Shown in pieces: positions 24,141 to 61,189 of a stretch of 64,000 nt of DNA (its first letter is position 1; each line of letters starts with the position of its first letter). The DNA lies in NCBI RefSeq assembly GCF_024734385.1, contig NZ_JANHAP010000008.1, positions 62,001 through 126,000 on the forward strand. Reading direction: 5' to 3'. Made by a program: the position numbers and the translations under genes. A model generated the notes under the pieces. It was not told the DNA's origin and searched no databases. It was given only the letters and a program-made list of their open reading frames with translations. This stretch comes from Dasania sp. GY-MA-18. GTDB lineage: Bacteria; Pseudomonadota; Gammaproteobacteria; Pseudomonadales; Dasaniaceae.

Positions 24141-25157
24141 TTATTTAGCATTGCTGTTTTTCTGGCCGCGAAATTGTTGCGGGGTAAGCCCAGTCCAATT
24201 TTTAAAGGCGCGGTTAAGTGAGGCCGACTCAGAAAAACCTACCAGCTGAGCTATATCGGCAATGTTCATATTGCTACGGCTGAGTTTATCCATGGTGAGG
24301 TCACGGCGTATTAGTTCTTTTAAGTGCCTATAGCTGGTGTTTTCGGCAGCCAATTTACGGCCTAGTGAGGTGCGACTCATATGTAGTGAGTCGGCTAATT
24401 GCTCTAGGGTGGGGAATTTAAGATGCTCTCTGGATTGTTTTAAAATTAAAATTTTAATACGAGTTTCTAAGCTGGAATCTTTACCGGGGATTGATAAAAA
24501 ATCATCAGGCAGGCTATTTAAAAAATCATAGAGTTCACTGCGTGAGCGTATAGGTTGCAGATCTTTAAAGTTGTCATTAAAAATCAGTGCATTTCTTTCC
24601 CGGTTAAAATGTATAGGGCACTGAAATAATAATTTATACACTTCAGAGTGTGCGGGCTCGGGGTAAGCAAACTCGGCGTATAAGGGCTTTATTTTTTGAT
24701 TGCTAAACCAGCAAGATAATCTATGCCAGTAGAATAAAATATATTCAATACTGAAATGTTGAATATCATAGGAGGGCGCGTGGTTGACAACGCTAAGTGC
24801 TTGTTTGTCATCCACAGCTTCTAGCGACATGATGATATCACTGTCTACTAAGGTGTAAAAACGCGTCATCTCCTTAAAAAAATGGGCGAAGTTTGTGCTG
24901 CGACGCGCTAACTTGCAGGCGGTGGCAAAAGTACCGCGCTTGCAGGGCCTCTGAGTAAAGCCCAAGAACTCATCATCCATGGCATCCCATAAATAGCGCC
25001 ACAAATTTGAAAACTCTTGATTAGTGACGGTACTTGTCGGGTCATCTAGTTTGGCGACATCTATATTCAGCGCCTTACAGATGGCGGCGGGCCGCAAGCC
25101 TTTACGCTTGGCGCTGTGTAGAGCGATATGAAAATAGTGCGCGGGTATATCTGACAT
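24141..25157 (-). CDS. AraC-family transcriptional regulator
   Basis: A 338-aa regulator. The N-terminal about 230 residues match the ligand-binding domain seen in OruR/ArgR-type AraC proteins (LWRYLWDAMDDEFLGFTQRP, CKLARRSTNFAHFFKEMTRF). The C-terminal about 95 residues hold two helix-turn-helix motifs, with the usual IADIAQLVGFSESASLNRAF and WTGLTPQQFRG. An AAAGG stretch lies just before the ATG. It is downstream of, and on the same strand as, the acyl-CoA dehydrogenase gene across the palindromic element at 25314-25419. Regulators of this subtype often control fatty-acid or amino-acid catabolism, so control of that gene is possible but unproven. Confidence 0.88.
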   Translation of the reverse strand: MSDIPAHYFHIALHSAKRKGLRPAAICKALNIDVAKLDDPTSTVTNQEFSNLWRYLWDAMDDEFLGFTQRPCKRGTFATACKLARRSTNFAHFFKEMTRFYTLVDSDIIMSLEAVDDKQALSVVNHAPSYDIQHFSIEYILFYWHRLSCWFSNQKIKPLYAEFAYPEPAHSEVYKLLFQCPIHFNRERNALIFNDNFKDLQPIRSRSELYDFLNSLPDDFLSIPGKDSSLETRIKILILKQSREHLKFPTLEQLADSLHMSRTSLGRKLAAENTSYRHLKELIRRDLTMDKLSRSNMNIADIAQLVGFSESASLNRAFKNWTGLTPQQFRGQKNSNAK

Positions 25158-25313
25158 TAACCTTTAAGGCCCTGTGATGAGTTAGCGCTAGGGATTATAA
25201 AGGGGTTTGAGCCAATATAAAAATGGTGGGTTGCTGGCTTGCTAGGGTACAAGGTCAGTTGGTTATTTTGCTGTGCAGTATTAGCAGCGCGTGGGCTAGT
25301 GATTTCGGCTGCC

Positions 25314-25419
25314 AGCAAGTAAGGGTAGTGTTGCTAAGACACGCCGTGAATATGTCCCTATAGGCTAGGCGCTGGCATCCATGCCAGCGACTGTCTTAGC
25401 AACATTACCCTTACTTGCT
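25314..25419. repeat. Large nested palindrome (106 bp)
   Basis: Outer arms of 28 bases, AGCAAGTAAGGGTAGTGTTG and eight more at 25314-25341, pair with 25392-25419 with a single mismatch. Inside are a perfect 9-bp hairpin CGCTGGCAT/ATGCCAGCG (25370-25389, loop CC) and an 8-bp palindrome CCTATAGG (25357-25364). The core from CCGTGAATATGTCCC to the inner hairpin resembles, from memory, a palindromic intergenic repeat common in marine gammaproteobacterial genomes. It lies between the stop of the acyl-CoA dehydrogenase gene and the start of the AraC-type gene. Only one copy was seen in this window. No T-run follows it, so a plain terminator role is doubtful. Confidence 0.8.
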
Positions 25420-25454
25420 TTTGAGATCCGAGCTTAGCGAAAGATTTAACAGCT

Positions 25455-27191
25455 TTAAAAAGCCGCCTCTTCCATAGCCATTAAGGCGCTATGATCCGCC
25501 ATGATTTGCAGCTTCAAGCTATCAATACGTGGCAGCAGGTTGCTGTAGTAAAACTGGGCTATCGTGCGCTTATTGCGGTGCAGCTCGCTATCGCTGTTGG
25601 CGGCAGCGGCCATTTTGGCCCACATATAGGCGAAAATAACGTAGCCGATCAGGTCTTGGTAATACACGGCAGTGGCGCCAATTAACTCTGGCGAGCCTTG
25701 CTCGACTATATATTGGGTGCACTCTTGCAGCTGTTGGCAGGCTGCCAGCAGCGCGCTTTTCATCTCTGTCGTCAGTGTGGCGCTATCGGCAAACTGTTGC
25801 GCTTCGGCGATTAAATGGGCAACGCTGGCGCCTTGGTTGGGGGCGACTTTACGGCCTAATAAGTCCATGGCCTGTATGCCGTTGGTGCCTTCATAAATTT
25901 GGGTGATGCGCACATCGCGTACTAGCTGCTCTTGCCCCCACTCCCTAATAAAACCGTGGCCGCCCAAGACTTGTTGCCCCAATACGCAGGTCTCTAGGCC
26001 GCGGTCGGTGCAAAAGCCTTTCACTATAGGGGTGAGCAGAGCCACTTGCTCGGCAGCTTGTTGCTTGGCTTGCTCATCGTCTGAGAACTTGGTGATGTCT
26101 AATAGGTTGGCGGTGTAGGTGCTAAAGCAGCGGCCAGCCTCGGTAAAGGCGCGCATAGTGAACAACATGCGACGCACATCGGGGTGTACTAACAGGCTTT
26201 CAGCTTGATCGGGGCTGACGCCCTTACGGCGGCCTTGTAGGCGTTCGCGGGCGTATTGGGCTGCGCATTGGTAGGAGCGCTCGGCCGGGCCTATGCCCTG
26301 TATGCCAACGCCTACACGCTCGTAGTTCATCATGGTAAACATGGCCATGAGGCCGCGGTTTTCCTGACCTACCAAATAGCCGGTAGCTCCATCAAAATTC
26401 ATCACACAGGTGGGCGAGGCTTTAATGCCCATTTTATGCTCTATAGAGCCGCAGCTCAGCTTATTGGCTTGGCCGTTGTTCAGTATTTTGGGTACCAAAA
26501 ACATCGATATACCCTTGGGGCCAGCGGGGGCGTCGGGCAGCTTGGCCAATACTAAGTGGATGATATTGTCGGTGAGGTCGTGTTCGCCACCGGTAATAAA
26601 AATCTTGGTGCCGCTAATGGCGTAGCTGCCATCGTCTTGGGCTGTGGCTTTGCTGCGTATAATGCCTAGGTCGGAGCCGGCGTGAGGCTCCGTTAGGCAC
26701 ATAGAGCCAGCCCATTCACCGCTGTACATTTTGGGCAGGTATTGTTGTTTTAACTCATCGCTGCCGTGCTCATTAAGCGCTAAACAAGCACCGGCTGTGA
26801 GCATGGGGAATAAGGAAAACGAGAGGTCGGCACTGGCAAACATCTCTTCACAGTGCACGGCTAGCGCCTTGGGCATACCCAATGCGCCAAAGTCTGGGTT
26901 GCCGGTTAGGCCGCCCCAGCCACCCTCACTAAGCGCTTGATAAGCGGCCTTGTGACCTTTGGCGGTGGTAACTTTACCTTCGGAAAATGAGCAGCCCTGT
27001 TCGTCGGCCTCACGGCTAAAAGGCGCTATCATATCGCGGCTGAGCTTGGCGCACTCGGCTAACATGGCACTGGCAGTATCGGCATCTACCCGCTCGGCCA
27101 GTATGGGGTTGTTAGCCCACTGCTGGGGCAAATTAAACACCTCGTTAAGCAAAAATTCTATATCGGCTACGGGCGGGTTAAATTCTGACAT
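25455..27191 (-). CDS. Acyl-CoA dehydrogenase (long form with C-terminal extension)
   Basis: FAD enzyme that introduces the alpha-beta double bond in an acyl-CoA. From ATG 27191 (Shine-Dalgarno GGAAGTGAG just upstream) it has 578 residues. It has an N-terminal extension, the acyl-CoA dehydrogenase N and middle domains (SMCLTEPHAGSDLGIIRSKA; KIFITGGEHDLTDNI), and the flavin domain with the catalytic Glu in QIYEGTNGIQAMDLLGRK. About 120 further residues follow. This long architecture is shared by FadE-like and DmdC-like enzymes, the latter acting on 3-methylmercaptopropionyl-CoA. Substrate cannot be told from sequence. An upstream ATG at 27275 lacks a ribosome site. Confidence 0.9.
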   Translation of the reverse strand: MSEFNPPVADIEFLLNEVFNLPQQWANNPILAERVDADTASAMLAECAKLSRDMIAPFSREADEQGCSFSEGKVTTAKGHKAAYQALSEGGWGGLTGNPDFGALGMPKALAVHCEEMFASADLSFSLFPMLTAGACLALNEHGSDELKQQYLPKMYSGEWAGSMCLTEPHAGSDLGIIRSKATAQDDGSYAISGTKIFITGGEHDLTDNIIHLVLAKLPDAPAGPKGISMFLVPKILNNGQANKLSCGSIEHKMGIKASPTCVMNFDGATGYLVGQENRGLMAMFTMMNYERVGVGIQGIGPAERSYQCAAQYARERLQGRRKGVSPDQAESLLVHPDVRRMLFTMRAFTEAGRCFSTYTANLLDITKFSDDEQAKQQAAEQVALLTPIVKGFCTDRGLETCVLGQQVLGGHGFIREWGQEQLVRDVRITQIYEGTNGIQAMDLLGRKVAPNQGASVAHLIAEAQQFADSATLTTEMKSALLAACQQLQECTQYIVEQGSPELIGATAVYYQDLIGYVIFAYMWAKMAAAANSDSELHRNKRTIAQFYYSNLLPRIDSLKLQIMADHSALMAMEEAAF

Positions 27192-27430
27192 GGTGCTCAC
27201 TTCCAATAGTGGGTTGGTTAACAAAGTATTGTGTATTAGGGGGTAGCCTGCTTGACGGCTTACCCCAGCTTTCATGGCTTTTTGGCTCTATTGAGCCCAG
27301 ATCAGTGATCTTGTTTACTGGTTGCTGCGCAGTTCAAGCCGTTTTGACTATAGTTTAGGATGACAAAAGCGCGCTGAATTATGAAAAATAAATAATAACT
27401 AATAAATAAAAGTGCAGAGGTGTAGCGACG

Positions 27431-52875: not shown

Positions 52876-52926
52876 AAGCAGTACACTAATTCCTAGTTAT
52901 TGCACCTAGGAATTAGTTTACTGCTT
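52876..52926. repeat. Long inverted repeat between convergent genes
   Basis: Arms of 21 bases (52876-52896 and 52906-52926) pair with one mismatch; the inner 12 bp ACTAATTCCTAG / CTAGGAATTAGT are perfect and the loop is 9 bases. It lies in the 138-bp gap between the convergent permease and avtA genes, so it may act as a bidirectional terminator, though no T-run follows the stem on either side. Confidence 0.75.
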
Positions 52927-57914: not shown

Positions 57915-58013
57915 AGTGCTGTCCTTTAGGTTTTATAATAAGTCTCTATCTGGGCTAGGTTGGTATTGATTATTACAGGCTTAAGCGTAGACCTTAACTG
58001 AAATTGCAGGCAT

Positions 58014-58048
58014 AAAAAAGCCGAGAGCTGCATTGCAACTCTCGGCTT
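58014..58048 (-). terminator. Terminator of the sulfide oxidation operon
   Basis: On the minus strand a 10-bp stem AAGCCGAGAG / CTCTCGGCTT (58018-58027 with 58039-58048) is followed by a T-run (A-run on the plus strand, 58014-58019). It lies 15 bp past the stop of the sulfide:quinone oxidoreductase gene. Confidence 0.9.
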
Positions 58049-58062
58049 AATTATTATAGGCG

Positions 58063-61130: not shown

Positions 61131-61166
61131 CCAAAAAGAAAAGGCGATACCCGTGGGTATCGCCTT
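61131..61166 (-). terminator. Terminator of valS
   Basis: A perfect 12-bp stem AAGGCGATACCC / GGGTATCGCCTT (61141-61166, loop of 2). On the minus strand it is followed by a T-rich tract (61131-61140). It lies 24 bp past the valS stop. Confidence 0.9.
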
Positions 61167-61189
61167 GTGCTTGTGACTAACAGTTAATT

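Follow-up and report, generated by a model that had tools for sequence, protein, structure and literature searches.

A palindromic repeat related to TwoAYGGAY RNA in Dasania sp. GY-MA-18, with putative CsrA sites on its GGA strand

A long nested palindrome at positions 25314-25419 of a 64,000-nucleotide stretch from Dasania sp. GY-MA-18 (the window) is probably best explained as a copy of a mobile dispersed repeat whose GGA-strand RNA presents putative CsrA sites. Its closest known counterpart is the RNA family TwoAYGGAY (RF01731), found on the minus strand, and by sequence it appears to be a divergent, sub-threshold relative of that family. The proposed repeat unit would be roughly 110-140 bp long, and its functional product would be the RNA of the strand with the GGA loops, which is the minus strand at the window. 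In this RNA, a long self-pairing stem would display one or two hairpins with A-N-G-G-A-N loops that a CsrA dimer could grip. The RNA may work as a decoy for CsrA, or it may give CsrA a binding site within the transcript that contains it; for the window copy, that transcript would be the acyl-CoA dehydrogenase message, with the site in its 3′ part. The GGA strand would then be transcribed, CsrA would bind it, and the binding would matter to the cell. The labels G, C and L used below denote genomes, contigs and loci, G000 being the genome of the window.

The palindrome, its fold and its locus

The outer arms (25314-25341 and 25392-25419) are 28 nt each, separated by a spacer of 50 nt, and pair at 27 of 28 positions (96%), as an earlier note on this DNA had described. 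Among seven listed inverted repeats with arms of at least 20 nt within 300 bp, this pair has the highest complementarity. The perfect inner hairpin (25370-25389, CGCTGGC/ATCCAT/GCCAGCG) that the same note reported is likewise present, and a short inner palindrome lies at 25351-25362. Read as minus-strand RNA, 25392-25419 provides the 5′ arm of the outer stem and 25314-25341 its 3′ arm, both paired in the predicted fold, and 25370-25389 becomes hairpin 1, with a 7-bp stem and the loop AUGGAU (25377-25382). The whole dispersed, TwoAYGGAY-like element, as aligned and modelled from the RF01731 match and our own covariance model R1, covers 25310-25423 on the minus strand. Other short inverted repeats of the window, perhaps terminator-like hairpins, lie at 52876-52926, 58012-58054 and 61132-61175.

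Predicted folding energies were compared with those of dinucleotide shuffles. The plus-strand RNA (126 nt) reached −66.6 kcal/mol (z −8.5) and the minus-strand RNA (114 nt) −62.9 kcal/mol (z −8.9), and in neither case did any of 200 shuffles fold equally low. The 54-nt core without the arms is ordinary on its own (z −0.66; 51 of 200 shuffles fold equally well), so the unusual energy comes from the arms. Hairpin 1, which matches the hairpin helix of an 11-sequence consensus, exposes ANGGA in its loop in the predicted fold and is a predicted ANGGA-type, CsrA/RsmA-like site. Hairpin 2 (25351-25362, minus strand) is weak, with UAU/AUA around AGGGAC (25354-25359); it has three base pairs only, a pair probability of 0.002 and no place in the minimum-energy fold, is thus not predicted to form, and costs 2.8 kcal/mol when forced. 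At the corresponding site, a sister copy on contig C18 reads UAC/AUGGAU/GUA. Hairpin 1 therefore appears to be the only good putative CsrA site of the window copy, by its predicted structure. The single arm mispair of this copy is A.C on the GGA strand, not G.U.

An Rfam search matched RF01731 at 25308-25425 on the minus strand with 32.5 bits (E 0.0027). The C18 copy scored 36.9 bits, and the copies on C21, C4 and C9 gave no RF01731 match at E 0.5, so that no copy of the host genome reaches the curated cut-off of 43 bits. A scan of the entire window (1-64000) returned no Rfam family at its cut-off. The window copy has the outer stem enclosing the hairpins, and its first loop, AUGGAU, fits the AYGGAY pattern; the second, AGGGAC, does not, while the C18 copy carries AUGGAU in both. 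Given the cut-off and the second loop, the window copy is not filed as a formal TwoAYGGAY member. Among 57 genomes (G000 and relatives), 15 contain an RF01731 match at E 1 or better and four contain one above the cut-off; G043 holds 37 RF01731 matches. TwoAYGGAY shares the Rfam clan CL00106 with E. coli CsrB. The family is listed in a table of a 2010 paper (PMC2864571), and its binding by CsrA was proposed in 2014 on grounds other than those given here, as far as the accessible portion of that article goes (PMC4333381). Literature searches on TwoAYGGAY/RF01731 returned no test of the proposed CsrA role in the passages retrieved.

The element sits in a 228-bp intergenic stretch (25227-25454), in a tandem sense arrangement between an acyl-CoA dehydrogenase gene on its 5′ side (25455-27275, minus strand), whose stop codon is 35 bp from the arm, and a gene for an AraC-family regulator on its 3′ side (24141-25157, minus strand). 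For the latter, a search of solved structures added nothing. Upstream of the AraC gene, a motif search located a promoter-like TTTATA-16-TATAAT (25194-25221, minus strand), one instance against 0.7 expected in shuffles, in a stretch that is almost identical in the congener G001. In this congener the gene order at the locus is kept, the element is absent and the gap measures 38 bp instead of 228 bp; gain in the host and loss in the congener cannot be told apart.

Copies, dispersal and movement

The host genome (3.8 Mb, 21 contigs) was searched by DNA and by pattern. A genome-wide search with the core, which the earlier note had suggested, located CTGGCATCCATGCCAG at five places with at most one mismatch (four exact), against none for a backward-read control: on C20 (the window), C18, C21, C4 and C9. 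The palindrome is thus neither a single copy nor the sole bearer of its core. The C9 copy has one mismatch and no arms, and the C18 copy has about 70 bases in common with the window copy at 92% identity. Inserts of about 36 nt separate the two hairpins in C21 (one insert) and C4 (two). The outer arms of the C20, C18, C21 and C4 copies are unlike one another in sequence, with pairing kept in each.

As a separate observation, copies from G000, G001 and G003 (L026 on C21, L027 on C4, L309, L310, L313, L314, L316-L318 and L325) share a hairpin insert of about 35 nt, of the GAGCCTGCCCCATGA...GTGCTTTGGGTA type, always at one position ahead of hairpin 2; in C4 and L310 it is doubled in tandem. L031 (G000 C21:173740-173810) carries an arm-like CTGTCTTAGCAA stretch and is flanked by GCGCTTCGAAG; this fragment may be what remains of an element.

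The C18 element is present at the orthologous locus in G001, where all 101 of 101 inner positions are identical, compared with 572 of 677 in the adjoining genes (p 2e-7). Identity over the entire Rfam match is 113/118, and the 52-bp flank of this element is itself fairly conserved (48/52). In G001, three copies lie at the counterpart of the C4 locus, and a pair at that of the armless C9 remnant. On the 3′ side of the conserved C18 element, G001 seemingly has a degenerate second copy (L102/L312) that is missing in G000.

The covariance model R1 was trained on 11 sequences, including the window copy, which as a training sequence scores 95.8 bits (G000:C20:87306-87428). At E 1, R1 yielded 109 matches in six genomes; removal of eight low-scoring rows (E 1e-4 to 0.6, three of them in G000) and eight opposite-strand shadows left 93 places, 11 of which are training sequences (G028 34, G049 22, G003 16, G001 11, G056 7 and G000 3). 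At E 0.001, R1 also matched in Glaciecola (9), Luteimonas (11), Shewanella abyssi (37), Pseudomonas viridiflava (9) and G043 (5), and gave no match in Ruminiclostridium. All five G043 matches lie elsewhere than the RF01731 places of that genome, whose RF01731 copies R1 did not recover. The G043 copies are consequently tied to the family through RF01731 and their GGA hairpins only, which slightly lowers confidence in the CsrA-site reading. One R1 match in G043 (C1:6235487-6235611) adjoins an RF01731 match, and the R1 places there may be a second subfamily. A pattern scan for double hairpins found at least 119 stretches, and the 80 matches listed are mostly from Pseudomonas, with some from Clostridia and others. 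The likeness to a short palindromic repeat of many marine gammaproteobacteria that the earlier note proposed is right in substance: the repeat to which the core belongs is present in many gammaproteobacteria and some Clostridia.

Counts of gene context, promoter signals, loops and mispairs rest on a set of 129 elements: 89 found by R1, 36 of G043 found by RF01731 and four of G000. A place on G056:C16 and a weak match in G043 (E 0.43) are outside this set. Among the 93 R1 places, neighbours within 1.5 kb are oriented head-to-head in 16 of 18 pairs (p 2e-8 against an expected quarter). Of the 15 pairs with both flanking genes called, 11 lie between tandem and 4 between convergent genes. No gene was called between the members of 16 of 17 opposite-orientation pairs, and the remaining one (G049 L370, 782 bp) has two weak calls. 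In three pairs of G003 (L315, L321 and L325), the members look by eye like two subfamilies, one per side.

Two copies in the relative G028 (L330 and L353) are 99.3% identical over 138 bp, with no further match within 500 bp on either side; this pair shows recent movement of a defined unit in that genome. By eye, no clear target-site duplication accompanies it. The idea that the arms are inverted target duplications was rejected, since recently moved copies take their arms along (L330/L353) and L311 and L314 have common arms. A search with PF01797, the one search made for a parent transposase, found none. A RAYT/Y1 transposase was rejected as the mover because in seven genomes no PF01797 match is flanked by copies; the domain is absent from G049, which has 22 places, and its nearest approach to a copy is 2.1 kb, in G043 (6121127-6121486 and 6123582). 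At three Pseudomonas loci with pairs, no transposase was evident by eye among the listed open reading frames, part of L149 being masked. The mobile palindromic unit proposed earlier is accordingly supported by one clear move in a relative, while its REP/RAYT form failed the tests applied.

Movement of this kind would also be expected of a MITE- or REP-like repeat acting purely as DNA, in which a transposase recognises a single-stranded DNA hairpin and any RNA is incidental. Besides the 138-bp unit moved within G028, the head-to-head pairs, which resemble REP doublets, and the absence of the element from the orthologous window locus in the congener agree with this alternative. It leaves loop conservation and csrA co-occurrence unexplained, and it sits poorly with the distance or absence of PF01797, with a GTAG-type head, as in REPs (PMC2817692, as excerpted), not being evident, and with the full identity of the C18 copy over 101 bp at a locus that two species have in common. 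We judge it a serious though rather unlikely account.

Arms, loops and strand

The earlier note regarded the long arms as an elaboration of the core; instead, arms of about 30 bp are standard in the family, variable in sequence and with complementarity kept. An alignment of 22 sequences at first had several misplaced by a hairpin, and 11 sequences from four genomes were kept. Their consensus has two hairpins and a long stem in two parts, with 32 pairs in all. Pairing is found in 91.8% of 451 cells, compared with 64.4% in shuffles and 34-43% in slid controls, a level that none of 500 shuffles reached, and 32 of 41 consensus pairs changed on both sides in a sequence-only alignment. For 12 elements of 10 genomes, arms pair on average with −39.8 kcal/mol within a copy and −12.4 kcal/mol between copies; the gap is small within G043 (31 elements with related arms), at −27.0 versus −22.2. 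This energy test took 55 elements and used 43, after prior removal of L028 and the duplicate L100; the 12 dropped, including the window copy, had a predicted fold without two GGA hairpins or an enclosing stem. The same covariation bears on the proposal of a double-stranded binding site for a dimeric DNA-binding protein. A perfect inner palindrome would suit such a site; the arms, however, change sequence among copies and still pair, which would not be expected of a site recognised by its sequence, and we consider this reading very improbable.

A letter-blind search of the 129 elements recovered 125 hexaloops, with A at position 1 in 109, G at position 3 in 112, G at position 4 in 114 and A at position 5 in 109. 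Positions 2 and 6 are more variable. The loops are thus mostly A-N-G-G-A-N, and ANGGA is described as a CsrA-type motif in the portion consulted of PMC7366521.

By context, 33 of the 129 elements are convergent, 5 divergent, 37 tandem sense and 41 tandem antisense, with 4 in open reading frames and 9 at locus edges. Strand preference relative to host genes is therefore absent (37 sense versus 41 antisense); an antisense placement suggested by crude ORF calls (34 of 45) was rejected, having vanished with codon-model gene calls over all 129 elements. This balance, together with the few copies in divergent, promoter-containing gaps (5 versus 33 convergent), is in keeping with the DNA-level repeat. 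Upstream sigma-70 signals are not enriched over the 129 elements (p 0.21; for G043 by itself, an uncorrected p of 0.02), and an own sigma-70 promoter was rejected on this basis. Without strand preference or sigma-70 enrichment, the source of the RNA is not evident.

Tandem or convergent contexts hold 111 of the 129 elements, as would suit a long stem serving to terminate or protect the transcript of the preceding gene on either strand. The 35 bp between the acyl-CoA dehydrogenase stop codon and the element point the same way, as does the congener, where a short hairpin followed by T was read from the sequence at that place. No terminator-like site was found in 25100-25600, and the conserved GGA loops would go unexplained, which makes this 3′-end role improbable. 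Both mRNA stabilisation and a double-stranded binding site fit less well than the CsrA-site reading.

Mispairs in the outer arms bear on an RNA reading of the element. With orientation set from the loops alone (125 of 129 elements, four being ambiguous), the GGA strand shows 197 G.U against 61 A.C mispairs across seven genomes, an excess inflated by shared descent in G043 and G001. G003, G028, G049 and G056 together give 80 versus 40, with little excess in G003 (11:8) and G056 (4:4) individually. Among elements over 80 bits in these four genomes the ratio is 45 to 21, making model bias unlikely, and the excess appears in both tandem contexts (sense 45:18, antisense 70:16). It was not reproduced in Clostridia loci (6:8; 10 of 20 usable), in G102 (1:8; seven usable of nine near-identical copies) or in the pattern-found set (34:29; 31 of 81 usable). 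Wobble could also arise from G.T in single-stranded DNA, as the DNA-level repeat would have it. Strand evidence favours an RNA reading of the element within this order, without proving it.

The CsrA link and comparison with known systems

The gene csrA is present in 55 of the 57 genomes of the relatives' set, with four CsrA matches in G000, and in all 15 genomes chosen among the double-hairpin pattern matches listed. G003 has 11 CsrA matches. A broader sample took 293 genomes from the class to which a Lachnospiraceae genome belongs, a class that we take to be Clostridia. Here RF01731 was found in 27 genomes and csrA in 104, and 25 of the 27 carriers have csrA (all except G226 and G350); carriers are undercounted, since at most nine candidates were scored per genome under strict filters. 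With the centre genome excluded, csrA accompanies 24 of 26 RF01731 carriers and 79 of 266 non-carriers (p 3e-10, with shared ancestry not removed). The fliW gene occurs in the same 104 genomes as csrA and in one more, so the association is with the csrA-fliW module, whose parts are inseparable. In the Lachnospiraceae genome G059, seven CsrA matches, six of them weaker and in longer frames, were seen beside nine strong TwoAYGGAY copies.

Like TwoAYGGAY RNA, the element has adjacent GGA-loop hairpins within a long outer stem, belongs to gammaproteobacteria and Clostridia, and is linked through the clan to CsrB; unlike it, the window copy scores under the cut-off, and its second hairpin is short and has the loop AGGGAC in place of AYGGAY. 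In the literature passages retrieved on TwoAYGGAY, CsrA with repeats, marine palindromes and R178, TwoAYGGAY is nowhere described as a mobile repeat. Relative to these published accounts, the family's dispersal, the movement of the 138-bp unit, the variable self-complementary arms, the head-to-head pairs and the csrA/fliW association are new here.

Structured RNAs exposing A(N)GGA are also found among the CsrB/RsmZ-type sponge RNAs and in Aln1a-c of Alteromonas. According to the sections available of PMC5864184, the three Aln1a-c RNAs lie next to each other, have mapped start sites and offer many sites; the present element, in contrast, occurs in many copies with one or two sites apiece, and no promoter signal was found for it. 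REP/BIME sequences with RAYT, in the excerpted account of PMC2817692, share dispersed extragenic palindromes, frequent inverted doublets and complementary stem changes; the element differs in its greater length (~110-140 bp), its GGA loops and the lack of an evident GTAG-type head or a linked Y1 transposase. R178 of Pseudomonas fluorescens, a 101-bp intergenic repeat with internal 11-bp inverted repeats in the part seen of PMC2718517, is similar in size by its published description. According to that same part, intergenic repeats of this species concentrate at the 3′ ends of genes and seldom lie between head-to-head genes, and the element resembles them in both respects.

The CsrA-site reading draws on the RF01731 match, the CsrB clan, covariation, arm pairing and hexaloop conservation, and further on the G.U excess, the identity of the C18 copy in the congener, csrA in the host genome and co-occurrence in the Clostridia sample. 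Weighing against it are the sub-cut-off score of the window copy, its weak hairpin 2, its A.C mispair and its absence from the congener locus, along with the lack of a G.U excess outside the seven genomes and the inseparability of csrA from fliW. The absence of strand preference and of sigma-70 enrichment, the fairly conserved flank of the C18 element and the G043 copies missed by R1 count against it as well. If this reading is correct, a repeat met in many genomes would be explained, and repeats that deliver CsrA sites while moving would link mobile DNA to a global post-transcriptional regulator. More tentatively, and as a possibility that we do not favour, the elements may be transposable CsrA decoys: a selfish or domesticated repeat that seeds bacterial genomes with RNA hairpins aimed at a global regulator, with arms rewritten in each lineage and pairing kept. 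In that event, copy number and the messages hit by insertion would rewire CsrA control.
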